Positions 1 to 64,000 of a DNA stretch of 64,000 nucleotides are shown here, piece by piece (the stretch's first letter is position 1; every line of letters begins with the position of its first letter). The DNA comes from Tragulus kanchil (taxonomy: Eukaryota > Chordata > Mammalia > Artiodactyla > Tragulidae). The DNA lies in assembly GCA_022376925.1 (NCBI GenBank), contig JAIOJX010000002.1, positions 134,364,831 to 134,428,830 on the forward strand, written 5' to 3'. The notes beneath the pieces were generated by a model. That model had not been told where the DNA came from and searched no databases. It was given only the letters and a program-made list of their open reading frames with translations. The translations under genes and the position numbers were made by a program.

Positions 1-37
1 GCGGTGTCCCTACCCACTGGACCACCAAGGAAGCCCC
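1..37 (-). mobile_element. 5' head of CHR-derived SINE (duplicate of 1131-1165)
   Basis: The window opens inside the tRNA-like head of a young SINE read in antisense; box-like text ending in the inverted GGGCTTCC start is visible. It is the replayed tail of the element whose full copy lies at 848-1165. Confidence 0.8.
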
Positions 38-120
38 GCTCTAGTATTCTTGCCTTGGAGAATTCCATGGAGCCTGGTGGGCTGCGGTCCTTGGAGTCGC
101 AAAGATGACTGAACAAGGAA
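38..120 (+). mobile_element. Bov-tA SINE, right half (duplicate copy)
   Basis: Right-hand Bov-tA text (TATTCTTGCC, then GTCGCAAAGA). Duplicate of 1166-1250; the left half of this element is at 724-847. Confidence 0.8.
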
Positions 121-335
121 CACTTGTTTCTTGCTTAAGATTATCCTCAGTTGTGCTCAGAATTACCTGGGACTAATTTTGGAACCACAGAGAAATTCCT
201 TAGCCGAGCATTTTTGGCATCGTGTATTTCCTCAGGGTGAATCTAATTAAAACGAGATCAGCGTTGCATAGAAAATGCATAAGGTTTAATGCTCTTACCA
301 GAGTCAGAAGTCCAAAGCCCAGGGTCCTGTGTTTC

Positions 336-723
336 AATGCATCCCAGGAGTGAAAATTATCTCATGTCCAAGTTTTGTTTAGAGTATATAAGATACTTGG
401 GCTAGGGCTCAGCACAGCTAAGCACTCAGAAAATATCAGTTGCTAGGATTGTCTTCAAACTAAGCCAGTGGAGGGGCAGCTTGTGTGAGAGGAGACTGTG
501 AACTGCGGGATTGCTTTGCTAAGGGACCGGCTGCCATGTGAGAGTTCAAACCCAGCTGTGAGCGTGTAGTCATCCTGTGCCACTACTTGGCTCCTGTATT
601 CCATTTGGGCTGGAGTGGGAAGGAACAAGACAGGAGAAACCATAAATTGACAGCCCTTGACACTGAGATGTTTAGGATCCCCTACTTAGGGATATTCAGG
701 AAAGGGTAAGATTATCCTCTTAC
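336..723. other. Non-genic DNA, no recognised element
   Basis: Contains the junction where pair 1 diverges (about 335-380), then AT-rich unique-looking text. The antisense open frame at 455-643 has no recognisable protein features. Confidence 0.6.
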
Positions 724-847
724 CCAGGGCTTTGCTGGTGGCTCAGACGGTAAAGAACCTGCCTGCAGTGCGGGAGACCTGGGTTCAATTCCCTGGGTCA
801 GGAAGATCCCCTGGAGGAGGGCATGACAACCCGCTCTAGTATTCTTG
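724..847 (+). mobile_element. Bov-tA SINE, left half
   Basis: tRNA-Glu-related head (GCTTTGCTGGTGGCTCAG) and the GGAGGAGGGCATG centre of Bov-tA. It is interrupted at 848 by a younger SINE and resumes at 1166. Confidence 0.9.
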
Positions 848-857
848 TTTGTTTTTC

Positions 858-895
<38 letters not shown>

Positions 896-1165
896 TATAA
901 TTTTTTTGGCCACTTCTATTGGTCTTTCATTTATCTATTTTTATCCATCTTTGTTCTTTGGCCTGTGTGGCCCTCCCACCTCAGCGGCCTCTCTTGCTGC
1001 AGAGCACCGGCTCTGGGCACATGCGCTCCAGAGTGCTGGCTCGGCAGTTGGACACATCCGTCCAGCTGCTCTGCGGCACACGGGGATCCTCTCAGGCTAG
1101 GGATTGAACTCGCGCCCCTTGCACTGAAAGGCGGTGTCCCTACCCACTGGACCACCAAGGAAGCC
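848..1165 (-). mobile_element. Young CHR-derived SINE inserted into Bov-tA, with target-site duplication
   Basis: About 270 bp of antisense CHR-2-derived SINE plus an AT-rich tail at its left. The target-site duplication CCGCTCTAGTATTCTTG is perfect over 17 bp (831-847 and 1166-1182). Its tail contains a (TA)n run rather than the C-rich extension seen in some relatives. It postdates the Bov-tA it splits. Confidence 0.9.
858..900. repeat. (TA)n microsatellite in SINE tail
   Basis: Alternating TA broken once by a G, lying in the A-rich tail of the antisense SINE; probably expanded after insertion. Confidence 0.9.
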
Positions 1166-1250
1166 CCGCTCTAGTATTCTTGCCTTGGAGAATTCCATGG
1201 AGCCTGGTGGGCTGCGGTCCTTGGAGTCGCAAAGATGACTGAACAAGGAA
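1166..1250 (+). mobile_element. Bov-tA SINE, right half
   Basis: Continuation of 724-847 after the inserted SINE; starts with the second target-site copy. Confidence 0.85.
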
Positions 1251-1465
1251 CACTTGTTTCTTGCTTAAGATTATCCTCAGTTGTGCTCAGAATTACCTGG
1301 GACTAATTTTGGAACCACAGAGAAATTCCTTAGCCGAGCATTTTTGGCATCGTGTATTTCCTCAGGGTGAATCTAATTAAAACGAGATCAGCGTTGCATA
1401 GAAAATGCATAAGGTTTAATGCTCTTACCAGAGTCAGAAGTCCAAAGCCCAGGGTCCTGTGTTTC

Positions 1466-3290: not shown

Positions 3291-3555
3291 CTTATAATAG
3301 ACATTATTCTTAAAAATCCCCAAAGTATTGCAAGAATCCAACCGTTGTGGGTTTCATCAGAATCGACTTTATAGGGTCCAAGTTTATTTTAGTCTGTAAT
3401 TAACACATAGAAATTAGAATAGGTACTTTTAAGAAAACAACAAAGATGAATCAAAGGTTCATTTTATTTTTGGCATATTTTTTCCCCTAGGAACTTATGA
3501 TATCCTGAATTTCAGGTTGAACTGTCTTAGCAAAATCATAAATAGGGTCCCCGCC

Positions 3556-3672
3556 CTTTTTTTTGATCATGTCGTACAGCCCATGGGATCCTTAGGTCAC
3601 TGACCAGGGATCAAACCCATGCCCCTGCATTGGCAGTGCAGAGTTTTAACCACTGGACTGCCAGGGAAATTC
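3556..3672 (-). mobile_element. Short CHR-type tRNA-Glu SINE
   Basis: Antisense SINE with CTGACCAGGGATCAAACCC (inverted B-box region) and head ending CTGCCAGGGAAATTC; T-run at left is the A-tail. Confidence 0.85.
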
Positions 3673-3684
3673 TAACAGGGCCTT

Positions 3685-3961
3685 TTTGTTTGTTTTTAAA
3701 TTTTGGCCTCTTTTATTAATTATTTATTTATTTATTTTAATCCATCTTTATTGTTTGGCCTGTGTGGGCCTCCCATCGCAGTAGCCTCTCTCGTTGCAGG
3801 GCACCGGCTCTGGTGGACGTGCTCCAGAGCACTGGCTCGTAATTGGACACACCGGGCCAACCGCTCTGCAGCACGTGGGATCTTCCTAGGCCAGGGATTG
3901 AACTGGTGTCCCTTGCACTGCAAGGCGAAGTCTTTACCCACTGGACCACCAGGGAAGCCCC
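3685..3961 (-). mobile_element. Young CHR-derived SINE
   Basis: Full-length antisense copy. Target-site duplication AACAGGGCCTT / AATAGGGCCTT (3674-3684, 3962-3972; one mismatch). Confidence 0.9.
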
Positions 3962-4658
3962 AATAGGGCCTTATTGTGATTGTGTCATCCTAAGTCAGGC
4001 TACAGGCTGCTGGAGCCTCTGTTCATCCACTTCTCTCCCTTCCCAGATCCCAGAGGCTTGTGAGAGCGACTCCACTTACCTCTTGGCTCCTTCTGAATGA
4101 GTCCTGGGGGCGTCCTAGGTGGACGAAAGGCAGAGGCCTTTTGAATTTGTGTTTGTTGGTTTGACTTTTATTTTTTCCACCTGAAGGGGATTTGGGGCTC
4201 AAGTCCCAAAAGAAGTAAGAAATGTTAAGGGTGAACGCTGAATCTGAGTAAGAAGAAAGGTTGATTTGTTGCAAAGGCAGTGATTCATTTATTTTGAGCT
4301 GTAATGCACTCGGGGAAAACTCGAAGCTTGGTCACTGGGCAACAGAATGCCTTTCTAAGTAGAATATGACCTTTGAAAATCTAGTTGATATAGGGTTCCT
4401 AAGTTTATACTTTTAAAAATCCCCAAAGTATTGCAAGAATCCAACCGTTGTGGGTTTCATCAGAATCGACTTTATAGGGTCCAAGTTTATTTTAGTCTGT
4501 AATTAACACATAGAAATTAGAATAGGTACTTTTAAGAAAACAACAAAGATGAATCAAAGGTTCATTTTATTTTTGGCATATTTTTTCCCCTAGGAACTTA
4601 TGATATCCTGAATTTCAGGTTGAACTGTCTTAGCAAAATCATAAATAGGGTCCCCGCC

Positions 4659-4775
4659 CTTTTTTTTGATCATGTCGTACAGCCCATGGGATCCTTAGGT
4701 CACTGACCAGGGATCAAACCCATGCCCCTGCATTGGCAGTGCAGAGTTTTAACCACTGGACTGCCAGGGAAATTC
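4659..4775 (-). mobile_element. Short CHR-type SINE (duplicate of 3556-3672)
   Basis: Replayed copy in pair 2. Confidence 0.85.
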
Positions 4776-4787
4776 TAACAGGGCCTT

Positions 4788-5064
4788 TTTGTTTGTTTTT
4801 AAATTTTGGCCTCTTTTATTAATTATTTATTTATTTATTTTAATCCATCTTTATTGTTTGGCCTGTGTGGGCCTCCCATCGCAGTAGCCTCTCTCGTTGC
4901 AGGGCACCGGCTCTGGTGGACGTGCTCCAGAGCACTGGCTCGTAATTGGACACACCGGGCCAACCGCTCTGCAGCACGTGGGATCTTCCTAGGCCAGGGA
5001 TTGAACTGGTGTCCCTTGCACTGCAAGGCGAAGTCTTTACCCACTGGACCACCAGGGAAGCCCC
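4788..5064 (-). mobile_element. Young CHR-derived SINE (duplicate of 3685-3961)
   Basis: Replayed copy in pair 2, with its flanking target-site words also replayed. That shows copying of a whole locus, not a second insertion. Confidence 0.9.
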
Positions 5065-5500
5065 AATAGGGCCTTATTGTGATTGTGTCATCCTAAGTCA
5101 GGCTACAGGCTGCTGGAGCCTCTGTTCATCCACTTCTCTCCCTTCCCAGATCCCAGAGGCTTGTGAGAGCGACTCCACTTACCTCTTGGCTCCTTCTGAA
5201 TGAGTCCTGGGGGCGTCCTAGGTGGACGAAAGGCAGAGGCCTTTTGAATTTGTGTTTGTTGGTTTGACTTTTTAATTTTTTCCACCTGAAGGGGGATTTG
5301 GGGCTCCAAGTCCCAAAAGAAGTAAGAAATGTTAAGGGTGAACGCTGAATCTGAGTAAGAAGAAAGGTTGATTTGTTGCAAAGGCAGTGATTCATTTATT
5401 TTGAGCTGTAATGCACTCGGGGAAAACTCGAAGCTTGGTCACTGGGCAACAGAATGCCTTTCTAAGTAAATATGGAAAATATGACCTTTGAAAATCTAGT

Positions 5501-5736
5501 TGATATGATACACCGGCTATTACAAACACATTCAAAAATATATTATTTCCAAGTACAGTGATACTTCAAGTATTCTGGAACCGGATGCAGCATGTGTAAG
5601 GGGTATTCTGGTCAGTAAAGAAAAAGATGCAGAGAATGGGTCCAAATTGGTCCAAAGATAAACCAAAGGTTTCAAAATAATTTGCACACATTCTTGCTGT
5701 TGGGGCCTCTCTCCTTCCTTTGCCTCTGTCTCTTCT
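5501..5736. other. Non-genic unique-looking DNA
   Basis: No recognised element; its right end, GCCTCTGTCTCTTCT (5722-5736), is the target site of the next SINE. Confidence 0.5.
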
Positions 5737-6053
5737 TTTTTTTTTTTATTTATTTATCTTTTGGGGGGTGGAGTGGAGGGAGGGGGACGGGCGGGCCACT
5801 TCCATTGGTCTTTCATTTCTCTATTTTCATCCGTCTTCGTTCTTTGGCTCCTGTGGGCCTCCCATCGCGGTGGCGTCTGTCGTTGTAGAGCGCCGGCTCT
5901 GGGCGCATGCGCTCCAGAGCTCCGGCTCGGTAATTGGACACATTGGTCCAGCCGCTCCGCGGCACGTGGGATCTTCCCAGGCCAGGGATGGAACCTGCGC
6001 CCCTTGCACTGCAAGGCGGTGTCCTTACCCACTGGACCACCAGGGGAAGCCCC
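5737..6053 (-). mobile_element. Young CHR-derived SINE with C-rich 3' extension
   Basis: Antisense copy with perfect 15-bp target-site duplication GCCTCTGTCTCTTCT (5722-5736 and 6054-6068). Between body and A-tail is a G-rich stretch on the plus strand (5763-5795), that is, a C-rich extension in the SINE sense strand. CpGs are largely intact (GGGCGCATGCGC), suggesting recent insertion. Confidence 0.92.
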
Positions 6054-6846
6054 GCCTCTGTCTCTTCTGCCCGTCTTTTTGTTTCTGTCTTGGTCACCAC
6101 ACGTACACATAGGTGCACAGACAAAGACCAGTATGTCACTGTTTCAAGAGCATGCATCTCCTTTGGATGCTTTTTGGCTACCAGTATTCATAGTTATATT
6201 ATTAAGTATCATTTTAAATCCTCCGGTCTTTTGTCTTTGCAGTCACTTCTCTCCTCCCTTCCCAGATCCCAGACTGGAGCGACTCCACTTACCTCTTGGC
6301 TCCTTCTGAATGAGTCCTGGGGGCGTCCTAGGTGGACGAAAGGCAGAGGCCTTTTGAATTTGTGTTTGTTGGTTTGACTTTTTAATTTTTTCCACCTGAA
6401 GGGGGATTTGGGGCTCCAAGTCCCAAAAGAAGTAAGAAATGTTAAGGGTGAACGCTGAATCTGAGTAAGAAGAAAGGTTGATTTGTTGCAAAGGCAGTGA
6501 TTCATTTATTTTGAGCTGTAATGCACTCGGGGAAAACTCGAAGCTTGGTCACTGGGCAACAGAATGCCTTTCTAAGTAAATATGGAAAATATGACCTTTG
6601 AAAATCTAGTTGATATGATACACCGGCTATTACAAACACATTCAAAAATATATTATTTCCAAGTACAGTGATACTTCAAGTATTCTGGAACCGGATGCAG
6701 CATGTGTAAGGGGTATTCTGGTCAGTAAAGAAAAAGATGCAGAGAATGGGTCCAAATTGGTCCAAAGATAAACCAAAGGTTTCAAAATAATTTGCACACA
6801 TTCTTGCTGTTGGGGCCTCTCTCCTTCCTTTGCCTCTGTCTCTTCT

Positions 6847-7163
6847 TTTTTTTTTTTATTTATTTATCTTTTGGGGGGTGGAGTGGAGGGAGGGGGACGG
6901 GCGGGCCACTTCCATTGGTCTTTCATTTCTCTATTTTCATCCGTCTTCGTTCTTTGGCTCCTGTGGGCCTCCCATCGCGGTGGCGTCTGTCGTTGTAGAG
7001 CGCCGGCTCTGGGCGCATGCGCTCCAGAGCTCCGGCTCGGTAATTGGACACATTGGTCCAGCCGCTCCGCGGCACGTGGGATCTTCCCAGGCCAGGGATG
7101 GAACCTGCGCCCCTTGCACTGCAAGGCGGTGTCCTTACCCACTGGACCACCAGGGGAAGCCCC
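6847..7163 (-). mobile_element. Young CHR-derived SINE with C-rich extension (duplicate of 5737-6053)
   Basis: Replayed copy in pair 3, target-site words included. Confidence 0.92.
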
Positions 7164-7593
7164 GCCTCTGTCTCTTCTGCCCGTCTTTTTGTTTCTGTCT
7201 TGGTCACCACACGTACACATAGGTGCACAGACAAAGACCAGTATGTCACTGTTTCAAGAGCATGCATCTCCTTTGGATGCTTTTTGGCTACCAGTATTCA
7301 TAGTTATATTATTAAGTATCATTTTAAATCCTCCGGTCTTTTGTCTTTGCAGTCCAGTGAATTCTTGGGTGGCGAGTGGGGTCAGCTGAGAATTTCATCA
7401 TCTCTGGCTAATGCTTTCAAAAGCTGGGTCCCTTATCACTCTTGGCATTTGATCTCATCTCAAGGATTCTTTGACTTCACTCATCCTGTGTCTCCACTGA
7501 AACTGTATAATACTTCCCAGAAAGTATCTGTTGGATAGAGCTGCCTTAGCTCCAAGCAGTAGCTTTCAAAATAATCCTAACATGAGCCAGTTG

Positions 7594-7670
7594 TGGGAGA
7601 TAGTGAAGGACAGCCTGGCGTGCTGCCGTCCATGGGGTCGCAAACGGTCGACACAACTGAGCGACTGCAG
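7594..7670 (+). mobile_element. BovB/BovA 3' fragment
   Basis: Words GACAGCCTGGCGTGCTGC and CAACTGAGCGACTG match the shared 3' end of BovB and BovA. Confidence 0.75.
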
Positions 7671-7719
7671 AAGAAATGTGAGCACTTTTAACTTTACTTT
7701 GTCAGCTCTAACCCTTCTT

Positions 7720-7868
7720 CTTCTTTCTTTCTTTTTTTGTATTTATTTGGTTGCACTGGGTCTTAGTTATGGTATGTGGGATCTAGTTCCCTGACCAGGG
7801 GTTGAACCCAGGTCCCCAGCATTGGGAGCACAGAGTCTTAGCCCTTGGACCGCTTGGGAAATCCCCGA
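7720..7868 (-). mobile_element. Short CHR-type SINE
   Basis: Antisense copy with perfect target-site duplication CTCTAACCCTTCTT (7706-7719 and 7869-7882). Confidence 0.9.
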
Positions 7869-7882
7869 CTCTAACCCTTCTT

Positions 7883-8207
7883 AACATGAAATATCAAATT
7901 TAAGATTAACTTTAAAAGAAAAGAAGACATATACATGGACAAAAGAGAAGAAAATGGGTAAAATCAGAGAGAATAGGAGCAGGTGAGAAGGGGATTTGGT
8001 GATGAGGTGGGAAGGAGGCCCTGCTTATTGCTTGGTCCAGGACCTGCTCCTGTTCTAAAGACTTACAGCAGAAACAGATGAGGCTTTGCTGGTCCGCGGA
8101 GGAGTGGATCCAGAGAGACCTCGGGGAGACAGCAACCTCGTGTCCTTCTCATCCTGCTTTTTAGACATTTATCTTTAATGGGGGTGGGGTTTAAAAGACA
8201 CATGGTT
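7883..8207. other. Non-genic unique-looking DNA
   Basis: Purine-rich at 7915-8010, otherwise unremarkable; replayed at about 8969-9293. Confidence 0.5.
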
Positions 8208-8300
8208 GGGCTTCCCCGGTGGTCCAGTGGGTAAAGAGTCCGCCTTGCAGTACAAGGGGCGTGGGTTTGATTCCTGACCCGGGAAGACCCCACGTGCCGG
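8208..8300 (+). mobile_element. Young CHR-derived SINE, cut by duplication junction
   Basis: Sense-strand head and B-box region of the element seen whole at 9294-9580. It stops abruptly at the pair 4 junction without a target-site duplication. Confidence 0.85.
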
Positions 8301-8676
8301 GAGCACGAGTGGTCCAGTGGGACGCACTGAGGTGTTTCAAGAGCATGCATCTCCTTTGGATGCTTTTTGGCTACCAGTATTCATAGTTATATTATTAAGT
8401 ATCATTTTAAATCCTCCGGTCTTTTGTCTTTGCAGTCCAGTGAATTCTTGGGTGGCGAGTGGGGTCAGCTGAGAATTTCATCATCTCTGGCTAATGCTTT
8501 CAAAAGCTGGGTCCCTTATCACTCTTGGCATTTGATCTCATCTCAAGGATTCTTTGACTTCACTCATCCTGTGTCTCCACTGAAACTGTATAATACTTCC
8601 CAGAAAGTATCTGTTGGATAGAGCTGCCTTAGCTCCAAGCAGTAGCTTTCAAAATAATCCTAACATGAGCCAGTTG

Positions 8677-8753
8677 TGGGAGATAGTGAAGGACAGCCTG
8701 GCGTGCTGCCGTCCATGGGGTCGCAAACGGTCGACACAACTGAGCGACTGCAG
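8677..8753 (+). mobile_element. BovB/BovA 3' fragment (duplicate of 7594-7670)
   Basis: Replayed copy in pair 4. Confidence 0.75.
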
Positions 8754-8802
8754 AAGAAATGTGAGCACTTTTAACTTTACTTTGTCAGCTCTAACCCTTC
8801 TT

Positions 8803-8954
8803 CTTCTTTTTTTTTTCTTTTTTTGTATTTATTTGGTTGCACTGGGTCTTAGTTATGGTATGTGGGATCTAGTTCCCTGACCAGGGGTTGAACCCAGGTC
8901 CCCAGCATTGGGAGCACAGAGTCTTAGCCCTTGGACCGCTTGGGAAATCCCCGA
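8803..8954 (-). mobile_element. Short CHR-type SINE (duplicate of 7720-7868)
   Basis: Replayed copy; the T-run differs by several bases from copy one. Confidence 0.88.
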
Positions 8955-9293
8955 CTCTAACCCTTCTTAACATGAAATATCAAATTTAAGATTAACTTTA
9001 AAAGAAAAGAAGACATATACATGGACAAAAGAGAAGAAAATGGGTAAAATCAGAGAGAATAGGAGCAGGTGAGAAGGGGATTTGGTGATGAGGTGGGAAG
9101 GAGGCCCTGCTTATTGCTTGGTCCAGGACCTGCTCCTGTTCTAAAGACTTACAGCAGAAACAGATGAGGCTTTGCTGGTCCGCGGAGGAGTGGATCCAGA
9201 GAGACCTCGGGGAGACAGCAACCTCGTGTCCTTCTCATCCTGCTTTTTAGACATTTATCTTTAATGGGGGTGGGGTTTAAAAGACACATGGTT

Positions 9294-9580
9294 GGGCTTC
9301 CCCGGTGGTCCAGTGGGTAAAGAGTCCGCCTTGCAGTACAAGGGGCGTGGGTTTGATTCCTGACCCGGGAAGACCCCACGTGCCGTGGAGCAGCTGGACC
9401 GCTGTGTCCAGTGAGGAGCCGGCACTCTGGAGCGCATGTGCCCAGAGCTGGTTCTCTGCAAGGAGAGAGGCCACTGCAATGGGAGACCCACACAGGATGA
9501 AGAGTAAAGATAGATGAAAATAAATAGATAGAAAACCAATAAAAGAGGCCAAAACTAAAAAAAAACAAAAAACAAAAAAC
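9294..9580 (+). mobile_element. Young CHR-derived SINE, full length
   Basis: Sense-strand copy from GGGCTTCCCCGGTGGTCCAG to an A-rich tail. Target-site duplication AAAAGACACATGGTT / AAAAGGCACATGGTT (9279-9293, 9581-9595; one mismatch). No C-rich extension. Confidence 0.92.
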
Positions 9581-9839
9581 AAAAGGCACATGGTTAAAAA
9601 ATAAAGTAGTACAAAAGTCAAAAAAAAAAATGTGTGATAGACTGTTGGTCTTTTTATAGAGTATACAAAATCCACTGTGTGGAAGTCACAAAGCAACTGA
9701 ACAACAAAATCCACAGCATTTACATGTGGCTTTTGGAGGTGTGATGAGTGCTTGGAAATCTGATAGGAAATTTATGTGTTTAGCACATACATCCATTGTC
9801 CGTCAATTCACCCTTCCTTCCAAAAAAGTATTCACTCAT

Positions 9840-9925
9840 TAAACTCTGGGTCAGGAATAATGTCAGATGGCAGGACTACGCTGGCGAATGAGATTGAGAG
9901 GATTCTTACTGCCATGGAGCTCACA
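9840..9925 (+). mobile_element. L2 LINE remnant
   Basis: L2 3'-end wording around ACTGCCATGGAGCTCACAGT. Old and diverged; replayed at 11019-11106. Confidence 0.6.
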
Positions 9926-9994
9926 GTGTAATGGGAAGGGTAAGACATTCTATGCACACAAAGTCCTGGCAGTGATAGTTTCACTCTTGTTAGA

Positions 9995-10382
9995 CAACCA
10001 AATGTCCTATATTCATGCATATGTGTGGAATCTAGAAAAATGGTACAGATGCACCTATTTCCAGGGCAAGAAGAGAGACGAAGATGTACAGAGACCGGCA
10101 CATGGGTGAAGAGGAGGGGGAAGGGGAAGGTGGGACGGATTGGGAGATTAAGATTGACGCAGATATACTACTTGGTGTAGAACAGCTAGTGGGAACCTGC
10201 TGGATAGCACGGGAACCTCAATGCAGTGCTCTGGAATGGCCTAGGGGGCGGGATGGGGTGGGCAGGAGGGAGGTCCAAGAGGCAGGGGATATATGTGTTC
10301 ATAGAGCTGAGTCATTTCGTTATATAGCAGAAACGAACACAACATGGTAAAGCAATTATACTCCAGTGAAAAATAAATCACG
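9995..10382 (+). mobile_element. L1 3' UTR fragment
   Basis: Ruminant L1 3'-end wording: TGTGGAATCTAGAAAAATGG, GCGGGATGGGGTGG, TTATACTCCAGTGAAAAATA. Strongly 5'-truncated. Confidence 0.8.
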
Positions 10383-10476
10383 CTTGTTAAACACTTGAAA
10401 TATTCAGATCCAGAACTCGACGTGGGCTTTTTAGACATTTATCTTTAATGGGGTGGGGTTTAAAAGACACATGGTT

Positions 10477-10761
10477 GGGCTTCCCGGTGGTCCAGTGGGT
10501 AAAGAGTCCGCCTTGCAGTACAAGGGCGTGGGTTTGATTCCTGACCCGGGAAGACCCCACGTGCCGTGGAGCAGCTGGACCGCTGTGTCCAGTGAGGAGC
10601 CGGCACTCTGGAGCGCATGTGCCCAGAGCTGGTTCTCTGCAAGGAGAGAGGCCACTGCAATGGGAGACCCACACAGGATGAAGAGTAAAGATAGATGAAA
10701 ATAAATAGATAGAAAACCAATAAAAGAGGCCAAAACTAAAAAAAAACAAAAAACAAAAAAC
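10477..10761 (+). mobile_element. Young CHR-derived SINE (duplicate of 9294-9580)
   Basis: Replayed copy in pair 5, flanking target words included. Confidence 0.9.
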
Positions 10762-11018
10762 AAAAGGCACATGGTTAAAAAATAAAGTAGTACAAAAGTC
10801 AAAAAAAAAAATGTGTGATAGACTGTTGGTCTTTTTATAGAGTATACAAAATCCACTGTGTGGAAGTCACAAAGCAACTGAACAACAAAATCCACAGCAT
10901 TTACATGTGGCTTTTGGAGGTGTGATGAGTGCTTGGAAATCTGATAGGAAATTTATGTGTTTAGCACATACATCCATTGTCCGTCAATTCACCCTTCCTT
11001 CCAAAAAAGTATTCACTC

Positions 11019-11106
11019 ATTAAACTCTGGGTCAGGAATAATGTCAGATGGCAGGACTACGCTGGCGAATGAGATTGAGAGGATTCTTACTGCCATGGAG
11101 CTCACA
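11019..11106 (+). mobile_element. L2 remnant (duplicate of 9840-9925)
   Basis: Replayed copy in pair 5. Confidence 0.6.
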
Positions 11107-11563: not shown

Positions 11564-11603
11564 CTTGTTAAACACTTGAAATATTCAGAGTGCTGAGGGG
11601 ATG

Positions 11604-52855: not shown

Positions 52856-53035
52856 TAAGTATCTGCCTGCCCATGCAGGAGACGTGGGTTCTATCCCTGG
52901 GTCGAGAAGACCCCTGGAGAAAGAAATGGTTAGTCCACTCTAGTATGCTTGCCTGGGAAATCCCGTGGACAGAGGAGCCTGGCGGGCCACAGTCCATGAG
53001 ACTGCAGAAGCGTTGGACACAAGCAACAGCGTAAC
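52856..53035 (+). mobile_element. Bov-tA SINE, 5'-truncated
   Basis: CTGCCTGCCCATGCAGGAGA, GTGGACAGAGGAGCCTGGCG. Replayed at 54000-54179. Confidence 0.88.
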
Positions 53036-53478
53036 CTCACGAAGATGAATTAAGTATCATAGACATGCTATTCAAGATTTCTTTTTGGCATTTTTGACAT
53101 CCCAGTGTAGGTCCTGTCTCCCTTACCCAGGGGTCATGATTGGTGTCTCTTTTTAGAACCTTTTTTCTGTTCCTGTTTGTGTCCAGACTGATGGTATGGT
53201 AGTTTGTGTGTGCACGCGTCTTGCTGAATGGTGTCATACATCACTCACCGCTTTGCTGCTTGATTTTTCATGTCACAGCATCTCAACGGGCAGCCTCGGT
53301 TGTTAGGCTTCTAACTACAGACTCCCTAGTAGTCTATAGTATGACCTTTCTCCCATTTTTATGGCCACTCAATTGAGCAACATTTAGATTCTGTCTTTTA
53401 GGTGTGGTGGTGTTGCAGGATGGGGATCCTTTCCAGCACCCAGCGTGGGCTCGTGTCTAACACTTGGGAATGAATTGT
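53036..53478. other. Non-genic, possibly very old LINE-like DNA
   Basis: No confident match; replayed at 54180-54626. Confidence 0.4.
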
Positions 53479-53999
53479 TACTGCCTGTTTGCAAAGAATC
53501 TGTTCGTTTTCTTCCCTTGGCATCCCCTCTTCCGTGGTTCAGAACCTATGCCTTGACAGATGGTCCCCAGGCTCTGTGGATTGAATTCTGTCCCTTCCTC
53601 TTATCCTCCATCCTTAAAGCAGTTAGTGCCTCTTCTTTTTTCACACCTGAGTTTCAGTAAGGAAAAGCAGTCGTTGTTAACTCTATTGATTGTAAAGTGC
53701 CTGTATGGAAGATGTTCATTATCGCCCCTGGGAAAGGATTAAGCCTGTAGGTTTTCAGCAGTCAGAGGGGCACAAAGCCAGGTGTGCCTTGACTTCCTGT
53801 TTCTCAAAAGAAAGAGAAAGCGTTTGGGGAGCTGGAAACCTCAGGCGTGGGGTAATAATTAATGAAACCATATTTATCCCCATAAGCACATCTCTTCCTC
53901 AGATTCTGGAGTCAACCAGACTTTGTGACCCACCACAGATGATATAGTGAGATTATCCTGTTGTGTTAGAGGGAAAAATTAAATTCGTAAGAAATGCGT

Positions 54000-54179
54000 T
54001 AAGTATCTGCCTGCCCATGCAGGAGACGTGGGTTCTATCCCTGGGTCGAGAAGACCCCTGGAGAAAGAAATGGTTAGTCCACTCTAGTATGCTTGCCTGG
54101 GAAATCCCGTGGACAGAGGAGCCTGGCGGGCCACAGTCCATGAGACTGCAGAAGCGTTGGACACAAGCAACAGCGTAAC
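54000..54179 (+). mobile_element. Bov-tA SINE (duplicate of 52856-53035)
   Basis: Replayed copy in pair 22. Confidence 0.88.
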
Positions 54180-54624
54180 CTCACGAAGATGAATTAAGTA
54201 TCATAGACATGCTATTCAAGATTTCTTTTTGGCATTTTTGACATCCCAGTGTAGGTCCTGTCTCCCTTACCCAGGGGTCATGATTGGTGTCTCTTTTTAG
54301 AACCTTTTTTCTGTTCCTGTTTGTGTCCAGACTGATGGTATGGTAGTTTGTGTGTGCACGCGTCTTGCTGAATGGTGTCATACATCACTCACCGCTTTGC
54401 TGCTTGATTTTTCATGTCACAGCATCTCAACGGGCAGCCTCGGTTGTTAGGCTTCTAACTACAGACTCCCTAGTAGTCTATAGTATGACCTTTCTCCCAT
54501 TTTTATGGCCACTCTCAATTGAGCAACATTTAGATTCTGTCTTTTAGGTGTGGTGGTGTTGCAGGATGGGGGATCCTTTCCAGCACCCCAGCGTGGGCTC
54601 GTGTCTAACACTTGGGAATGAATT

Positions 54625-55028
54625 GTCACAAACCAAGAGACTTTACTGGGAAGGGGCACCTGGGTGGAGAGCAGGAGGGGACGGGAACCCTGGAGGACTG
54701 CTCTGCCATGTTCTTTGCAGTCTTGGGTTTTATGGTGATGGGCTTAGTCTCCAGATTGTCTCTGGCCAATCGTTTTGACTCAGGGTCCTTTCTGGTGGTG
54801 TGCGCATTGCTCAGCCAAGATGGATTCCAGCAAAGAGGATTCTAGGAGACCCATGGAACATACAGGCTGGTGTCTCCTCTCTCCTTTTGACCTTTTCCAA
54901 ATTCCTTTGGTTAGTGGTAGCTTATTAGATCTGCGTTCCTTACCAGGACCTCCTGTTGTTAAGATAACTCATACAAGTGGTTACTCTGGTGCCTGGCCAG
55001 GGTGGGCAATCTCAGTGTTCCCCTAACA
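54625..55028 (-). mobile_element. Endogenous retrovirus LTR-like block (ERVK/BTLTR1-type)
   Basis: Antisense wording I associate with a ruminant ERVK LTR: TCAGCCAAGATGGATTCCAG, TTCCTTACCAGGACCTCCTG, GGTGCCTGGCCAGGGTGGGC. The right edge CCCTAACA gives a 5' TG terminus on the minus strand. The left edge is uncertain because it coincides with the pair 22 boundary. No retroviral genes lie next to it, so a solo LTR is likely. Confidence 0.65.
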
Positions 55029-56712: not shown

Positions 56713-56997
56713 CAGCTGTGTGGGACCAGCTCTGCAGAGGTATTGGGAAAAGCCAGTACATATATGATATTTGACTGGGAGTACATGGAGTCACGCATGC
56801 ATCTCAGTAAAGGATGACTGTCATCTCAAGGAACAGATATCTCAAGTTAATGATTTTAGTACTTTTCTATGTATGGGCAAGATTCTGGTTTCATTAAAAT
56901 CCTTCCTGAGATACATATCTGGCTATCTCAGGGGCTTGTTTTCTCGAGGCTGAGTGCCCTGTCTTGTCTCTCATCTGAACTCCCCTCTGGGTGCACT
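56713..56997. other. Non-genic unique-looking DNA
   Basis: May continue the element that hosts the minisatellite; class unknown. Confidence 0.4.
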
Positions 56998-57211
56998 GTT
57001 GGTCAGCAGCTGTGATGGCTGATGCCTCCATCCTTGTGGAACTGGTTGGTAAACCACACTTTTTGTTGTATACTAGTCATTTGTGTCTGTGTTTGTGCCG
57101 TTCTATTTTCATCAAATCCTGAGTGCTGTATCTCTCTAGTCTTTGGAATGAGAGACTCTCTTATCTTGCTTTGGCTCTTAAGGCCAAACATTGTTTCTAA
57201 GCAATCCATCA

Positions 57212-57292
57212 CCCCCACTTTCAAGGTGAGAAAACTGAGGTTCAGGAGGATACAGGATTAACTCAGGGTTCGAGCTGGTGCAGACATGAAAA
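57212..57292 (-). mobile_element. MIR remnant
   Basis: Antisense MIR: GTGAGAAAACTGAGGTTCAG. Replayed at 58349-58430. Confidence 0.7.
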
Positions 57293-57331
57293 AACTCTGA
57301 AAGCTGGAGCAGACCTAGAAATAGATCAGAC

Positions 57332-57450
57332 TGGGAATTCCCTAGTGGTCCAGTGGTTAAGACTCAGAGCTTTCACTGCCCTGACCTGGGTTCTGTTCCT
57401 GGTTGGGGAACTAAAATTCCACAAGCTGTGGGGCGTGGCCAAAAAAAAGA
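57332..57450 (+). mobile_element. Short CHR-type SINE
   Basis: GGGAATTCCCTAGTGGTCCA head to GGCGTGGCCAAAAAA tail. Flanks AGAAATAGATCA / AGAAATAGACCT. Confidence 0.9.
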
Positions 57451-58104
57451 AATAGACCTAACTGCTGTGAACCACAAGAGAGATTATTATCTCTAACCTT
57501 TTACTATTACCCAGACACTTCCACTTAGTATCTTGAGAGAAAAGTCTGTTTAATTATTCATGTCTTTTCCGAGTAATTGGTGACACGTCCTCCAGCTGGG
57601 AGACTGAATAAGCTTTGTTGCTAAAGCTGTCCACCACACATAAGACAGGTTCCAGCCCCAAAGAGTTAATGGAGAATTAATGGAGATCTTATCCTTGGGG
57701 GGTGTGTCTGCTGTGGGTCTCCTTGAATGCTAGCAGCAGCCTTTTGCTAAAATGCCCTGTGAACAGAAGGCTGGGAAACCAGTATCACCATGGTCCACTT
57801 CCATTTCAGAAATGACTTTCTGTATCCTTTATTTCTTCGGGGTCTTTAAAAAGAATTAAAAGCCCTTTATAGTTAGAAGCAAGGACAGGGATGTCTGTAG
57901 GCTTTCCAGGGAGCAGTGTACTGTCTCATGTCACAGAATGGGCAACAAAAATTGAACTCAGACTTGTACAACTGGTCTAAGCGAGGACCTCCCTGTATTG
58001 GATGCCAGACGTTCATTTGAAACACTTAATGATACTTTGGGACATGCACCAGTATTTTGAGAGTTTCTATTTGTTGAGTATTTATTTGAAGCAGGCACAG
58101 TAAT
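57451..58104. other. Non-genic unique-looking DNA
   Basis: No recognised element; replayed at 58588-59242, and its second half again from 59944. Confidence 0.5.
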
Positions 58105-58468
58105 GTTGAAAATATTTATTATGCTGGGATCTGTGTTGGTCAGCAGCTGTGATGGCTGATGCCTCCATCCTTGTGGAACTGGTTGGTAAACCACACTTTT
58201 TGTTGTATACTAGTCATTTGTGTCTGTGTTTGTGCCGTTCTATTTTCATCAAATCCTGAGTGCTGTATCTCTCTAGTCTTTGGAATGAGAGACTCTCTTA
58301 TCTTGCTTTGGCTCTTAAGGCCAAACATTGTTTCTAAGCAATCCATCACCCCCACTTTCAAGGTGAGAAAACTGAGGTTCAGGAGGATACAGGATTAACT
58401 CAGGGTTCGAGCTGGTGCAGACATGAAAAAACTCTGAAAGCTGGAGCAGACCTAGAAATAGATCAGAC

Positions 58469-58587
58469 TGGGAATTCCCTAGTGGTCCAGTGGTTAAGAC
58501 TCAGAGCTTTCACTGCCCTGACCTGGGTTCTGTTCCTGGTTGGGGAACTAAAATTCCACAAGCTGTGGGGCGTGGCCAAAAAAAAGA
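58469..58587 (+). mobile_element. Short CHR-type SINE (duplicate of 57332-57450)
   Basis: Replayed copy in pair 23. Confidence 0.9.
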
Positions 58588-59300
58588 AATAGACCTAACT
58601 GCTGTGAACCACAAGAGAGATTATTATCTCTAACCTTTTACTATTACCCAGACACTTCCACTTAGTATCTTGAGAGAAAAGTCTGTTTAATTATTCATGT
58701 CTTTTCCGAGTAATTGGTGACACGTCCTCCAGCTGGGAGACTGAATAAGCTTTGTTGCTAAAGCTGTCCACCACACATAAGACAGGTTCCAGCCCCAAAG
58801 AGTTAATGGAGAATTAATGGAGATCTTATCCTTGGGGGGTGTGTCTGCTGTGGGTCTCCTTGAATGCTAGCAGCAGCCTTTTGCTAAAATGCCCTGTGAA
58901 CAGAAGGCTGGGGAAACCAGTATCACCATGGTCCACTTCCATTTCAGAAATGACTTTCTGTATCCTTTATTTCTTCGGGGTCTTTAAAAAGAATTAAAAG
59001 CCCTTTATAGTTAGAAGCAAGGACAGGGATGTCTGTAGGCTTTCCAGGGAGCAGTGTACTGTCTCATGTCACAGAATGGGCAACAAAAATTGAACTCAGA
59101 CTTGTACAACTGGTCTAAGCGAGGACCTCCCTGTATTGGATGCCAGACGTTCATTTGAAACACTTAATGATACTTTGGGACATGCACCAGTATTTTGAGA
59201 GTTTCTATTTGTTGAGTATTTATTTGAAGCAGGCACAGTAATAAGCCACACATATGAATTATCTTAGTTAATTTTCATAGTAACCTATGACTTAAATAGT

Positions 59301-59806
59301 TTTGTTGTTCAGTTGCTCAGTTGTGTTCGACTCTTTGCAACACCATGGACTGCAGCACACCTGCTTCCCTGTCCTTCACTATTTTCTGGAATTTGCACAA
59401 ACTCACGTCCATTAAATCGGCGATACCATCCAACCATCTCATCCTCTCTCATCCCCTTCTCCTCCTGCCTTCAGTCTTTCCCAGCATCAGGGTCTTTTCC
59501 AGTGAGTCGACTCTTCTCATCAGGTGGCCAGAGGATTGGAGCTTCAGCTTCAGCATTAGTCCTTCCAATGAACATTCAGGGTTGATTTCCTTTAGGATTG
59601 AGTAGTTTGATCTCCTTGCAGTCCAAGGGTTTCTCCAGAGTCTTCTCCAGTACTACAGTTCATAAGCATCAATTCTTTGGTGCTCAGCCTTTTCTTTATG
59701 ATCCACATTTCACATCCATATATGAGTACTGGAAAAAACATAGCTTTGACTGTATGGACCTTTGTCAGCAAAGCGATAGCTCTCCTTTTTATTTTTTTGA
59801 TTTTGG
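59301..59806 (-). mobile_element. BovB (RTE) LINE 3' end (first copy)
   Basis: Antisense BovB 3' wording: TTGTTCAGTTGCTCAGTTGT, GGTGGCCAGAGGATTGGAGC, GCTCAGCCTTTTCTTTATGA. Replayed at 60424-60929. Confidence 0.93.
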
Positions 59807-59945
59807 CCTCTTACTGGTTTTTTATTTATTTATTTTCATCCGTCTTTATTCTTTGGCATGTGTGGGTCTCCCATTGCAGTGGCCTCTGTCGTTGCAGAGC
59901 ACTGGCTCTGCACACCTGCACTCCAGAGCGCTGACTCATAATTGG
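59807..59945 (-). mobile_element. Young CHR-derived SINE cut by junction
   Basis: Tail and body of the element whole at 60930-61172; stops at the pair 24 junction. Confidence 0.85.
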
Positions 59946-60423
59946 AGATCTTATCCTTGGGGGTGTGTCTGCTGTGGGTCTCCTTGAATGCTAGCAGCAG
60001 CCTTTTGCTAAAATGCCCTGTGAACAGAAGGCTGGGAAACCAGTATCACCATGGTCCACTTCCATTTCAGAAATGACTTTCTGTATCCTTTATTTCTTCG
60101 GGGTCTTTAAAAAGAATTAAAAGCCCTTTATAGTTAGAAGCAAGGACAGGGATGTCTGTAGGCTTTCCAGGGAGCAGTGTACTGTCTCATGTCACAGAAT
60201 GGGCAACAAAAATTGAACTCAGACTTGTACAACTGGTCTAAGCGAGGACCTCCCTGTATTGGATGCCAGACGTTCATTTGAAACACTTAATGATACTTTG
60301 GGACATGCACCAGTATTTTGAGAGTTTCTATTTGTTGAGTATTTATTTGAAGCAGGCACAGTAATAAGCCACACATATGAATTATCTTAGTTAATTTTCA
60401 TAGTAACCTATGACTTAAATAGT

Positions 60424-60929
60424 TTTGTTGTTCAGTTGCTCAGTTGTGTTCGACTCTTTGCAACACCATGGACTGCAGCACACCTGCTTCCCTGTCCTTC
60501 ACTATTTTCTGGAATTTGCACAAACTCACGTCCATTAAATCGGCGATACCATCCAACCATCTCATCCTCTCTCATCCCCTTCTCCTCCTGCCTTCAGTCT
60601 TTCCCAGCATCAGGGTCTTTTCCAGTGAGTCGACTCTTCTCATCAGGTGGCCAGAGGATTGGAGCTTCAGCTTCAGCATTAGTCCTTCCAATGAACATTC
60701 AGGGTTGATTTCCTTTAGGATTGAGTAGTTTGATCTCCTTGCAGTCCAAGGGTTTCTCCAGAGTCTTCTCCAGTACTACAGTTCATAAGCATCAATTCTT
60801 TGGTGCTCAGCCTTTTCTTTATGATCCACATTTCACATCCATATATGAGTACTGGAAAAAACATAGCTTTGACTGTATGGACCTTTGTCAGCAAAGCGAT
60901 AGCTCTCCTTTTTATTTTTTTGATTTTGG
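60424..60929 (-). mobile_element. BovB LINE 3' end (second copy, continuous with the rest)
   Basis: 3'-most part of a BovB that runs to about 62645, interrupted by two SINEs and a 616-bp replay. Confidence 0.93.
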
Positions 60930-61172
60930 CCTCTTACTGGTTTTTTATTTATTTATTTTCATCCGTCTTTATTCTTTGGCATGTGTGGGTCTCCCATTGC
61001 AGTGGCCTCTGTCGTTGCAGAGCACTGGCTCTGCACACCTGCACTCCAGAGCGCTGACTCATAATTGGACACACTGGTCTAGCTGCTCTGTGGCATGTGG
61101 GATCTTCCTGGGCCAGGGATTGAACCGGTGCCCCTTGCACTGCAAGGCAGACTCTTTACCCACTGGACCACC
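60930..61172 (-). mobile_element. Young CHR-derived SINE inserted in BovB, altered 5' head
   Basis: Antisense copy. The usual head end after CTGGACCACCAG is replaced by TCCAGTGGTGGAC, which makes an inverted repeat at 61160-61182 before BovB resumes. Confidence 0.88.
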
Positions 61173-61425
61173 AGTCCAGTGGTGGACTGTCTCTGCTTTT
61201 TAATATGCTGTCTAGGTTTGTCATAGCTTTTTTTCCATGGAGCAAGCATCTTTTAATTTCATGACTACATTCATTGCCCACAGTGATTTTGGAGCCCAGG
61301 AAAATAAAGTCTGTCACTGTTTCCAGTTTTTGGTATGAAGTGGTGGTACTGGATGCTGTGATTTTAGATTTTTGAATGTTGAGTGGTAAGCCAGCTTTTT
61401 CACTCTCCTTCTTCACTTTCATCAA
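61156..61425 (-). pseudogene. BovB reverse transcriptase fragment
   Basis: An antisense frame of 89 codons reads as the RTE/BovB RT segment downstream of the catalytic box, with LNIQKSKI, SKITVGNECSHEIKR and MTNLDSILKSRD. It is cut at its N-side by a SINE inserted at 61435 and at its C-side by another SINE. The initial Met is incidental. Replayed at 61772-62041. Dead remnant. Confidence 0.92.
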
Positions 61426-61434
61426 GAGGCTTTT

Positions 61435-61788
61435 TTTTTTTTAAAGACCTTTTTCTTTTTTCTTTTTTAACATTTATTTTATTTATTTATCTTTTTGGGG
61501 GGTGAGGTGGGGAGGGAGTGGGACGGGCGGGCCACTTCTATTGGTCTTTTCATTTATCTATTTATCTATTTTCATTTATCTGTCTGTTCTTTGGCTCCTG
61601 TGGGCCTCCCATCACGGTGGCCTCTGTCATTGCAGAGCACCGGCTCTGGGCGCACGCGCCCCTGAGCTCTGGCTTGGTAATAGGACACATCGGTCCAGCC
61701 GCTCCGCGGCACATGGGATCTTCCCAGGCCAGGGATCGAACCGGCGCCCCTTGCACTGCAAGGCAGACTCTTTACCCACTGGACCACC
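61435..61788 (-). mobile_element. Chimeric young SINE at 616-bp junction
   Basis: Body and C-rich extension match the SINE at 62048-62415. The head (GGCAGACTCTTTACCC, then CACCAGTCCAGTGG) matches the SINE at 60930-61172. It is thus a fusion of two elements. Confidence 0.88.
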
Positions 61789-62041
61789 AGTCCAGTGGTG
61801 GACTGTCTCTGCTTTTTAATATGCTGTCTAGGTTTGTCATAGCTTTTTTTCCATGGAGCAAGCATCTTTTAATTTCATGACTACATTCATTGCCCACAGT
61901 GATTTTGGAGCCCAGGAAAATAAAGTCTGTCACTGTTTCCAGTTTTTGGTATGAAGTGGTGGTACTGGATGCTGTGATTTTAGATTTTTGAATGTTGAGT
62001 GGTAAGCCAGCTTTTTCACTCTCCTTCTTCACTTTCATCAA
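61772..62041 (-). pseudogene. BovB reverse transcriptase fragment (duplicate of 61156-61425)
   Basis: Replayed copy in pair 25; identical in frame. Confidence 0.92.
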
Positions 62042-62047
62042 GAGGCT

Positions 62048-62415
62048 TTTTTTTTTTTAAAGACCTTTTTCTTTTTTCTTTTTTAACATTTATTTTATTT
62101 ATTTATCTTTTTGGGGGGTGAGGTGGGGAGGGAGTGGGACGGGCGGGCCACTTCTATTGGTCTTTTCATTTATCTATTTATCTATTTTCATTTATCTGTC
62201 TGTTCTTTGGCTCCTGTGGGCCTCCCATCACGGTGGCCTCTGTCATTGCAGAGCACCGGCTCTGGGCGCACGCGCCCCTGAGCTCTGGCTTGGTAATAGG
62301 ACACATCGGTCCAGCCGCTCCGCGGCACATGGGATCTTCCCAGGCCAGGGATCGAACCGGCGCCCCTTGCACTGCAAGGCGGTGTCCTTACCCACTGGAC
62401 CACTAGGGGAAGCCC
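62048..62415 (-). mobile_element. Young CHR-derived SINE with C-rich extension, inserted in BovB
   Basis: Antisense full-length copy. Target-site duplication AAGAGGCT (62040-62047, 62416-62423). G-rich plus-strand stretch 62113-62147, then (TTTA)n. Confidence 0.92.
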
Positions 62416-62645
62416 AAGAGGCTCTTTTGTTCCTCTTCACTTTCTACCATTAGGATGGTGTCATCTGCATACCTGAGGTTATTGGTATTTCTCCCGGCAA
62501 TCTTGATTCCAGCTTGACATTCATCCAGCCCAGTATTTCCCATGATGTACTCTGCATATAAGTTAAGTAAGCAAGGTGACAGTATACAGCCTCAACCCAT
62601 TCCTCTCCCAATTTTGAACCAGTCTGTTGTTTCGCTGTCTCGTTG
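62416..62645 (-). pseudogene. BovB reverse transcriptase catalytic segment
   Basis: Antisense BovB RT. The YADD catalytic box is encoded at 62460-62471 (tyrosine codon at right), followed by T-I. The SINE at 62048-62415 separates this box from the rest of the thumb-side RT at 61789-62047. The 5' truncation of the LINE is near 62645. Confidence 0.92.
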
Positions 62646-62744
62646 TATGGATAATTTGAGACTCATTTATTTGAGTTCCTCAAGGTCAAAGACAAATAAA
62701 TAACAGCCATGGTTTCAATGCTAAAATGCATACTTTTAAAGTTA

Positions 62745-63022
62745 TTTATTATTTTATTTTTTGCATACACTGAGTCTTCATCGCTGCTTGTAGACTTTCT
62801 CTGGTGTGGTGAGCAGGACCTACTCTTAAGTTGCGGTGTGCAGGCTTCTCCTTGCAGTGGTTTCTCTTGTTGCAGAGAATGGGCTCCAGGGTATATGGGC
62901 TTCAGTGGCTGTGGCATGTGAGCTCAGTAGTTTTGGCTTGGTTTCTCTGAGGCATGCAGAATCTTCTTGGACCAGGGGCCAAACCCTGTCCTCTGCATTG
63001 CAAGGTGGATTCTTTACCATTG
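62745..63022 (-). mobile_element. CHR-2-type SINE
   Basis: Antisense diverged copy: TTGCAGAGAATGGGCTCCAG, TGTGGCATGTGAGCTCAGTA, head GGATTCTTTACCATTGGA. Confidence 0.85.
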
Positions 63023-63799
63023 GAGGAAAAGACCGTCTGTTTCCTTCTTCTAAAAGACCTTTTATTTCCTTCTTGACCACGAAGGAAATAAAAAGATGTA
63101 TGCTTTTAATCATTACACTATTATGATGTCAGTTAATATAACCATTTCGTCTACATTTTCTCTTTTGTTCTGGAACGGGTAAGTGTTTTTCCAGGAAGGT
63201 TTTCATAAGCTGTTGACATGAATACATGGAGAAGACTGTGACCAGCTTAGAAGGGGAGTACATTCATCTCAGATGAACATTTATGGGGTTTATTTTTAAC
63301 TGGTTACAGATCTTGGACTAACATTTGAACACAACTTGTCTACAAAGCTCTTTATTCTAATTTTAGCTTGAGCCACTCTGGATGAATCTAAGAAGGAGAC
63401 GGGAATTCCTTTTTATTGAGTTTGACTCTGAAGTGGGTATGCTCATCTCAAAAATGGAGAAGTAAAATTGAGGTGACTCGCACAGGGTCATTCTGGTCTA
63501 TTATATTAGTGAATCAGTGATTTGCTGTCTCCATGTAAGAGGATTATAGATTCTCATCTGTTGCTATGTGATGCAGAGTATTTACCTACAGGAAGAATGA
63601 ACTTTCCTTTTCCTGTTGATATGGAGCATGGCTGTGTGATACCCATTGGCCAGTGGAATTGAGAGGATATGATATTCTGTACATCTAACCAGAAGCTTTA
63701 ACAGTCATTGAGTGATTTGCCCATTGCTCTTTTCCCTATCCTCAGGACCACGTGAGGACTGTTTCCTCAGCTTATATCCTGACATATAAAAGACACATG
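63023..63799. other. Non-genic unique-looking DNA
   Basis: Includes a short inverted repeat of TTTATTTCCTTC / GAAGGAAATAAA around 63060-63092; no other recognised feature. Confidence 0.5.
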
Positions 63800-63915
63800 G
63801 ATTTGAAGGAGTGGGAGGAAGGGAGGCTCGAGAAGGAGGTTCAACTGATTTGCCGTGTTGTCCGGCAGAAACCAACTACAAAACATTATTTATTTAGACA
63901 AATAAATGCATAAAA
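63800..63915 (+). mobile_element. L1 3' terminal fragment
   Basis: Very short L1 3' end: GTGGGAGGAAGGGAGGCTCG, GGCAGAAACCAACTACAAAA, then A-rich words. Confidence 0.65.
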
Positions 63916-64000
63916 ACTGAAAGTCTTCATCGCTGCTTGTAGACTTTCTCTGGTGTGGTGAGCAGGACCTACTCTTAAGTTGCGGTGTGCAGGCTTCTCC

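Follow-up and report, generated by a model that had tools for sequence, protein, structure and literature searches.

The window analyzed here, a 64,000-nt stretch of Tragulus kanchil contig JAIOJX010000002.1, is largely made of direct duplications in which the sequence steps back by about 1.1 kb and then reads on, and these step-backs are very probably an assembly artefact, left where long-read consensus units sharing a node of constant length would have been joined without trimming. A biological origin of the repeated 1.1-kb stretches can almost certainly be dismissed. Self-BLAST of the window recovered 23 complete pairs and two truncated by the window ends (Table 1), so that the chain of steps described in the first-pass annotation is real, and 25 of the 26 direct duplications counted there stand as step-backs, the other one, with an offset of 616 bp, being different in kind. 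The 23 complete pairs aligned over 1,059–1,200 bp, with offsets of 1,079–1,238 bp and identities of 98.6–100%, and the second copy began −8 to +42 bp from the end of the first. Counting complete pairs only, they cover 75.8% of the window, and its redundant share is 40.4%. Pairs 33065..35378 and 35007..37182 share 372 bp, and therefore the shared stretch occurs three times.

Table 1. Step-back pairs and the 616-bp tandem duplication, in window coordinates
Feature	Span	Strand	First copy	Second copy	Remarks	Source
Step-back pair, truncated by window start	1..1465	+	1-335	1131-1465	copies equal, hence junction placed near 336	
Step-back pair	3310..5506	+	3310-4391	4413-5506	21-bp filler	self-BLAST
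Step-back pair	5135..7354	+	5135-6244	6250-7354		self-BLAST
Step-back pair	7250..9392	+	7250-8305	8333-9392	27-bp filler similar to sequence 3' of 9392	
Step-back pair	9242..11589	+	9242-10408	10426-11589		self-BLAST
Step-back pair	11592..13811	+	11592-12704	12698-13811		self-BLAST
Step-back pair	13743..15923	+	13743-14828	14837-15923		self-BLAST
Step-back pair	15802..18056	+	15802-16925	16935-18056		self-BLAST
Step-back pair	18418..20579	+	18418-19501	19497-20579		self-BLAST
Step-back pair	21511..23678	+	21511-22586	22603-23678	identity 100%	self-BLAST
Step-back pair	24707..26903	+	24707-25802	25809-26903		self-BLAST
Step-back pair	26837..29158	+	26837-27987	28006-29158		self-BLAST
Step-back pair	29733..31968	+	29733-30853	30848-31968		self-BLAST
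Step-back pair	33065..35378	+	33065-34214	34229-35378	identity 100%	self-BLAST
Step-back pair	35007..37182	+	35007-36095	36094-37182		self-BLAST
Step-back pair	36819..38982	+	36819-37888	37918-38982		self-BLAST
Step-back pair	38627..40960	+	38627-39796	39793-40960	word directly past start presumably a ruminant-type SINE	self-BLAST
Step-back pair	41537..43699	+	41537-42603	42638-43699	34-bp filler similar to sequence 3' of 43699	
Step-back pair	45006..47438	+	45006-46205	46244-47438	38-bp filler, its first part a copy of sequence 3' of 47438 minus the initial bases	self-BLAST
Step-back pair	47769..50024	+	47769-48896	48893-50024		self-BLAST
Step-back pair	50398..52554	+	50398-51455	51498-52554	42-bp filler similar to sequence upstream of 50398	
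Step-back pair	52327..54626	+	52327-53478	53481-54626		self-BLAST
Step-back pair	56997..59242	+	56997-58104	58134-59242		self-BLAST
Step-back pair	58815..61069	+	58815-59946	59939-61069		self-BLAST
Tandem duplication, outside the presumed artefact series	60946..62403	+	60946-61787	61559-62403	period ~616 bp, identity 94.6%	self-BLAST
Step-back pair, truncated by window end	62773..64000	+	62773-62851	63922-64000	copies equal, junction ~63922	

The pattern had been described for the window, where it is indeed present, but it is not specific to it, since step-backs were seen in every other 10-kb stretch sampled (18/18, from 15 of the 16 large contigs), with 49 junctions in 180 kb. A pair census of the window and these 18 stretches (offsets of 900–1,500 bp, identity of at least 93%, length of at least 60 bp; all censused contigs at least 73 Mb) gave 74 pairs. 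In 61 of them, including the 23 of the window, the copies abut within 100 bp, our definition of a complete pair, and the second copy reads on into new sequence; the remaining 13 are truncated at the ends of sampled stretches. Between the abutting copies of the 61 complete pairs the gap or overlap ranged from −49 to +71 bp, and their offset formed a single class of 1,120 ± 38 bp (range 1,022–1,238 bp), independent of sequence. Identity of the copies was 97.7–100% (mean 99.5%), and the number of junctions per stretch was underdispersed (variance/mean of 0.25 over the 18 stretches of 10 kb). When the census was repeated with no offset limit, at identities of at least 97% and lengths of at least 100 bp, 83 direct pairs were found in 244 kb, 71 of them at 1.00–1.25 kb and 12 at about twice that distance, with no other offset class among them and no inverted pair at the same thresholds. 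Chance is not a candidate for their origin, because all 83 sit at one or two step lengths and none is inverted. The 616-bp tandem lies outside both censuses. Eight short loci, kept out of the census counts, were scanned separately, and five held pairs, two of these lying at or beside the window; no step-back was found in the other three (3.4–3.5 kb) or in the 4.1-kb locus L037, which is unsurprising given a junction density, from the pair census, of only about one per 3.67 kb. Words of ruminant-type SINEs match the window with up to three mismatches, in support of a ruminant origin. The 16 large contigs measure 73–297 Mb, which suggests n = 16. If the sample is representative, the redundant share of the 3.17-Gb assembly would be about 30%; removing it leaves about 2.2 Gb (2.06–2.34), which is less than is usual for ruminant genomes and counts against the artefact reading.

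While the overlap length stays constant, the units themselves vary from 1,795 to 4,624 bp (22 units in the window). Successive nodes were spaced 681–6,777 bp apart in 49 cases; as these come from the window and the 10-kb stretches, long spacings are under-represented. None of the 49 fell under 681 bp (P = 1.4e-8 for exponential spacing of equal mean). The overlap between one node and the next reaches 428 bp in the window and 439 bp in the sampled stretch L018. Fixed-size overlapping chunks, cut to allow polishing or parallel processing and then put together again untrimmed, would also predict a constant overlap and noisy ends, but their length should be constant, and with units and node spacings as variable as these we consider such chunks very unlikely.

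The copies of the 61 complete pairs differ by 237 events, namely 154 indel events and 83 substitutions, 35 of the latter being transitions. The earlier view that the differences are mainly in homopolymer length holds for 75 events, which are length changes in runs of at least three, but leaves out 60 other indels and the substitutions; a further 19 are changes in runs of two. Of the 237 events, 114 are no more than 50 bp away from an end of the overlap, where about 9% would be expected, including 41 of the 83 substitutions and 38 of the 51 non-repeat indels. Two haplotypes stitched side by side, the ordinary haplotypic false duplication, could differ by the 0.5% or so that corresponds to the mean identity; from them, however, one would expect even, mostly transition SNPs, not substitutions of which about half crowd at the overlap ends and fewer than half are transitions. 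Since they would predict neither a fixed 1.1-kb length nor a spacing floor, and several pairs are 100% identical across more than 1 kb, this origin is extremely improbable. Twenty-nine fillers were 10 bp or longer and had their flanks within the sampled stretch; 15 of them match the true continuation of one of the two units, first or second, at P < 0.05, with about three expected, and 14 match neither, which counts against untrimmed joins.

The 616-bp duplication is an old, ordinary and genuine tandem duplication, judged so because its copies are separated by 39 substitutions, 31 of them transitions, and five indel events. Such substitution-dominated, transition-rich divergence is not displayed by the step-back pairs and gives no support to the initial placement of this tandem in their series. 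It also bears on whether the step-backs could be true tandem duplications of recent date, some 1.1 kb long and generated genome-wide by a replication or repair process. Head-to-tail copies that are 97.7–100% identical are what a recent duplication would also produce, but the only genuine tandem of the window has the opposite pattern to theirs, in which indel events outnumber substitutions and differences crowd at the overlap ends. Near-constant length in unrelated sequence, and 83 pairs with no other offset class or inversion, are also hard to reconcile with such a process. Repeats are also informative: paralogous copies from elsewhere in the 244 kb sampled spanned none of 60 junctions, whereas control positions at the first-copy start, the second-copy end and mid-copy were spanned in 11, 13 and 16 of 60 cases, respectively, with overall repeat hits being similar for junctions (371) and the three controls (335, 339 and 352). 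This comparison used 60 of the 61 complete pairs, one lying near a stretch end, and disregarded any hit lying less than 2.5 kb away along one stretch. Furthermore, seven exon-sized matches of the conserved families PF00562 and PF00521 are doubled, with copies 1,072–1,199 bp apart, which again speaks against real duplication. We thus hold a genuine origin to be vanishingly improbable, and a lineage-specific process that copies a fixed 1.1 kb or so beside itself every few kilobases, whatever the sequence and throughout a mammalian genome, hardly deserves any credence.

Constant overlap, variable units, a spacing floor, one offset class, error-type differences and repeat copies lacking the junctions were all directly observed. 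The reading of untrimmed long-read consensus joins, already proposed at first pass, is strengthened by the 18 positive stretches, the single offset class and the absence of junction-spanning repeats, and it also fits the indel-rich ends, the 15 of 29 fillers that look like continuations and the doubled exon matches in two families. Contigs would be strings of units whose consensus was made one by one from long and noisy reads, and adjacent units would have in common, at their ends, one anchor segment, the node, of a constant 1.0–1.2 kb or so. Were the units written consecutively with the common node left in both, each node would therefore be doubled, back to back, often with a short filler between the copies, which may be noisy sequence from the ends of units, where coverage is thin. 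The joining step, we infer, was skipped, mis-set or failed. Against untrimmed joins stands the close similarity of the copies, which ought to have let a functioning joining step merge them.

Within the same reading, the assembler was probably of the wtdbg/wtdbg2 type, an attribution that rests on likeness of design. These programs use a fuzzy Bruijn graph, and wtpoa-cns makes the consensus, called per unit; by default bins are of 256 bp and the overlap of neighboring nodes is limited to one bin. In their normal output the common anchor is merged once, whereas in this assembly it would have been left twice. A spacing floor exists here (minimum spacing of 681 bp in 49 spacings), although overlaps of up to 428 and 439 bp exceed one 256-base bin. 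An open period search over 200–320 bp had its best value at 264 bp (p = 0.26) and did not single out 256 bp. A directed test of 256 bp, the period being taken from the wtdbg2 bin size, gave p = 0.009 for the 41 spacings under 2.7 kb, 0.035 for all 49, 0.007 for the 31 under 1.9 kb and 0.013 for the 47 under 4 kb; periods of 250, 260, 350 and 360 bp also reached p < 0.05 on the same 41 spacings. Given the result of the open search, after which the directed test was run, the 256-bp bin fingerprint is only suggestive. As outlined in the literature, the graph points of wtdbg2 are segments of 1,024 bp (PMC7506008), and its contigs are computed as overlapping read sequences, with the consensus made by a second program (PMC12037172). 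The likeness lies in anchors of about 1 kb common to neighboring units of variable length, the 1,024 bp outlined for the anchor (PMC7506008), which would be counted in read bases, being close to but below the observed mean of 1,120 bp, counted in consensus bases; deletions in reads or shifting node edges may account for this difference, which counts against the attribution. Another long-read assembler with constant-length anchors and the same untrimmed joins would be a variant of this explanation and not an addition to it. Overlap constancy and error spectrum point to no particular program, and neither the weak 256-bp fingerprint nor node overlaps larger than one bin speak for wtdbg, but nodes of about 1 kb with limited mutual overlap are numerically near wtdbg-type graphs, and we consider another program unlikely. 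Among the papers listed on the subject, titles and abstract beginnings contain no evident report of this untrimmed-node failure.

The importance of these observations is practical and not biological. If the sample is representative, a mammalian assembly of chromosome scale would be spurious in about 30% of its sequence, and in that case genome size would be inflated, exons doubled, gene models damaged, segmental duplications mimicked and read depth halved. Before duplications or gene families are sought in this assembly, it should be rebuilt or its second copies masked, and the signature of one offset class, abutting copies and indel-rich ends allows other assemblies to be screened easily. Known false duplications in assemblies, of the haplotypic or overlap type, are alike in counting sequence twice side by side and in inflating assembly size. 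In one benchmark, false duplication by k-mer counts amounted to 0.3–2.3% in most of the 23 human assemblies compared (PMC9668749), whereas our sampling suggests about 30%, with a single overlap length.

Self-comparison of the window (C31:134364831-134428830, on the contig designated C31) gave a string of direct duplications. In each complete pair the second copy starts at the end of the first, to within -8 to +42 bp, before continuing into new sequence. Complete pairs number 23, and each end of the window cuts one further pair. Where the segments present twice, here called nodes, overlap their successors, a common piece stands in three copies, the outer two spaced about 2.2 kb. The complete pairs cover 75.8% of the window and, when they alone are counted, 40.4% of it is redundant. 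The step-back duplications reported by the first-pass annotation are thus borne out, once a 616-bp tandem that it had placed in the series is taken out.

That tandem (see the table) is an internal contrast to the step-back pairs. Transitions make up 31 of the 39 substitutions between its copies, which also differ by five indel events, and because of this transition-rich, substitution-dominated divergence and an identity of 94.6% it looks like an old, genuine tandem duplication. The copies of the 61 complete pairs sampled (67,599 aligned columns) differ instead by 154 indel events against 83 substitutions, of which 35 are transitions; the indels comprise 75 length changes in homopolymers three or more bases long, 19 in runs of 2, nine in short tandem units and 51 others. 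Nearly half of the differences (114/237, about 9% expected) fall in the outermost 50 bp at either end of an overlap, including 41/83 substitutions, 38/51 other indels, 21/75 and 12/19 changes in the longer homopolymers and runs of 2, respectively, and 2/9 tandem changes. Noisy reads turned into consensus unit by unit, with coverage thinning towards the ends of each unit, would be expected to leave such a pattern; neutral divergence would leave the opposite.

Coordinates of individual features (window positions unless a contig is named)
Feature	Position	Particulars
Truncated pair, window start	junction near 336	
Truncated pair, window end	junction near 63922	
Clear filler case	after 46205	opening part repeats the sequence after 47438, minus its first bases
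Minisatellite	56508-56712	40-bp unit, 5.1 copies, 78% matches
Tandem duplication	60946-61787 vs 61559-62403	offset 616 bp, 94.6% identity
Word that we take to be of a SINE, in the tandem (60946-62403)	61161, 61777, 62393	
Long stop-free frame with PF00521 match	G000:C4:146618980-146620356	1,230 aa from ATG, reading through some unread bases

The junctions themselves set the pairs apart from ordinary genome. Within the sampled sequence, paralogous repeat copies spanned 11/60 first-copy starts, 13/60 second-copy ends and 16/60 mid-copy points but 0/60 junctions, with similar hit totals for the four query sets (335, 339, 352 and 371), although a junction query is a little harder to span, since it must be crossed including its filler, the bases between the copies. 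At their outer boundaries the pairs therefore act as uninterrupted genome of the usual kind, the junction alone being foreign. The filler analysis covered 29 of 10 bp or more. Against stretches drawn at random from the sampled sequence (P < 0.05), 15 of them resemble a true continuation, eight that of the first unit and seven the sequence upstream of the second (1.5 expected each), and 14 resemble neither.

The assembly holds 3,167,203,957 bases in 32 contigs, 16 of them large (73-297 Mb), and our census took in the window and 18 other 10-kb stretches on the 15 large contigs other than C23. Step-backs were present in 18/18 stretches (49 junctions in 180 kb, 1-4 each), more evenly than Poisson (variance/mean 0.25). 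With the window included there are 74 junctions, and the 61 complete pairs have a mean offset of 1,120 bp (SD 38, range 1,022-1,238), gaps between copies of -49 to +71 bp and identities of 97.7-100%. A search unrestricted in offset over the same sequence, at identities of at least 97% over at least 100 bp, returned 83 direct pairs, 71 at 1.00-1.25 kb and 12 at about double that, and no inverted pairs. We know of no biological process yielding a single length class. A separate scan of eight short loci matched in the repeat search found pairs in five and none in the other three (3.4-3.5 kb). Matches to the window's first 2 kb on C1, C3, C6, C8, C26, C27, C31 and C32 are often paired at a spacing of about 1.09-1.16 kb, which again points to the artefact.

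In exon-by-exon searches, five matches to PF00562 (RNA-polymerase family), on C3 and C8, were paired at 1,072, 1,080, 1,102, 1,124 and 1,188 bp (10/19 rows; nine single), and two to PF00521 (topoisomerase family) at 1,182 and 1,199 bp (4/9 rows; five single). Judging from the families, the paired matches would be exons of functional genes, and a biological origin for exon doubling at the artefact's own spacing is hard to credit; the doubling of the PF00562 matches means that this assembly's gene annotation has probably suffered damage. Besides exon-sized matches on C17 and C23, PF00521 matched a long frame on C4, probably a retrocopy, and the 4.1 kb read there held no step-back pair.

We conclude that the organism itself does not carry the step-back duplications, and the earlier reading of them as an assembly artefact is upheld for all but the 616-bp tandem. 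Extrapolated from a junction every 3.67 kb, each duplicating 1,120 bp, the redundant share of the assembly would be about 30%, or 26-35% within two standard errors across the 18 stretches, and 2.06-2.34 Gb would remain. This is lower than is usual for ruminant genomes, a small tension of which repeats dropped by the assembler, or sampling bias, may be the cause.

Because the overlap is constant, the unit length variable (in the window, 22 units measuring 1,795-4,624 bp) and the node spacing never below 681 bp (49 spacings), the anatomy is that of a fixed-anchor graph, in which fixed-length anchors would be linked by variable edges and consensus called per edge. We hold with great confidence that the pairs are untrimmed joins of this kind, the merging of shared nodes having presumably been skipped, mis-set or failed. 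In wtdbg2, bins measure 256 bases, one bin of node overlap is allowed by default, and the consensus program aligns the shared node and so merges neighbouring units. Node overlaps in the window reach 428 bp, exceeding one bin. A directed test for 256-bp steps was mildly positive, at p = 0.009 (41 spacings below 2.7 kb) and 0.035 (all 49), but was run after an open period search over node spacings had found no significant period (p = 0.26). A pipeline of the wtdbg type is a likely source: passages on wtdbg2 describe points of 1,024 bp (PMC7506008) and contigs formed of overlapping read sequences, with consensus left to a second program (PMC12037172).
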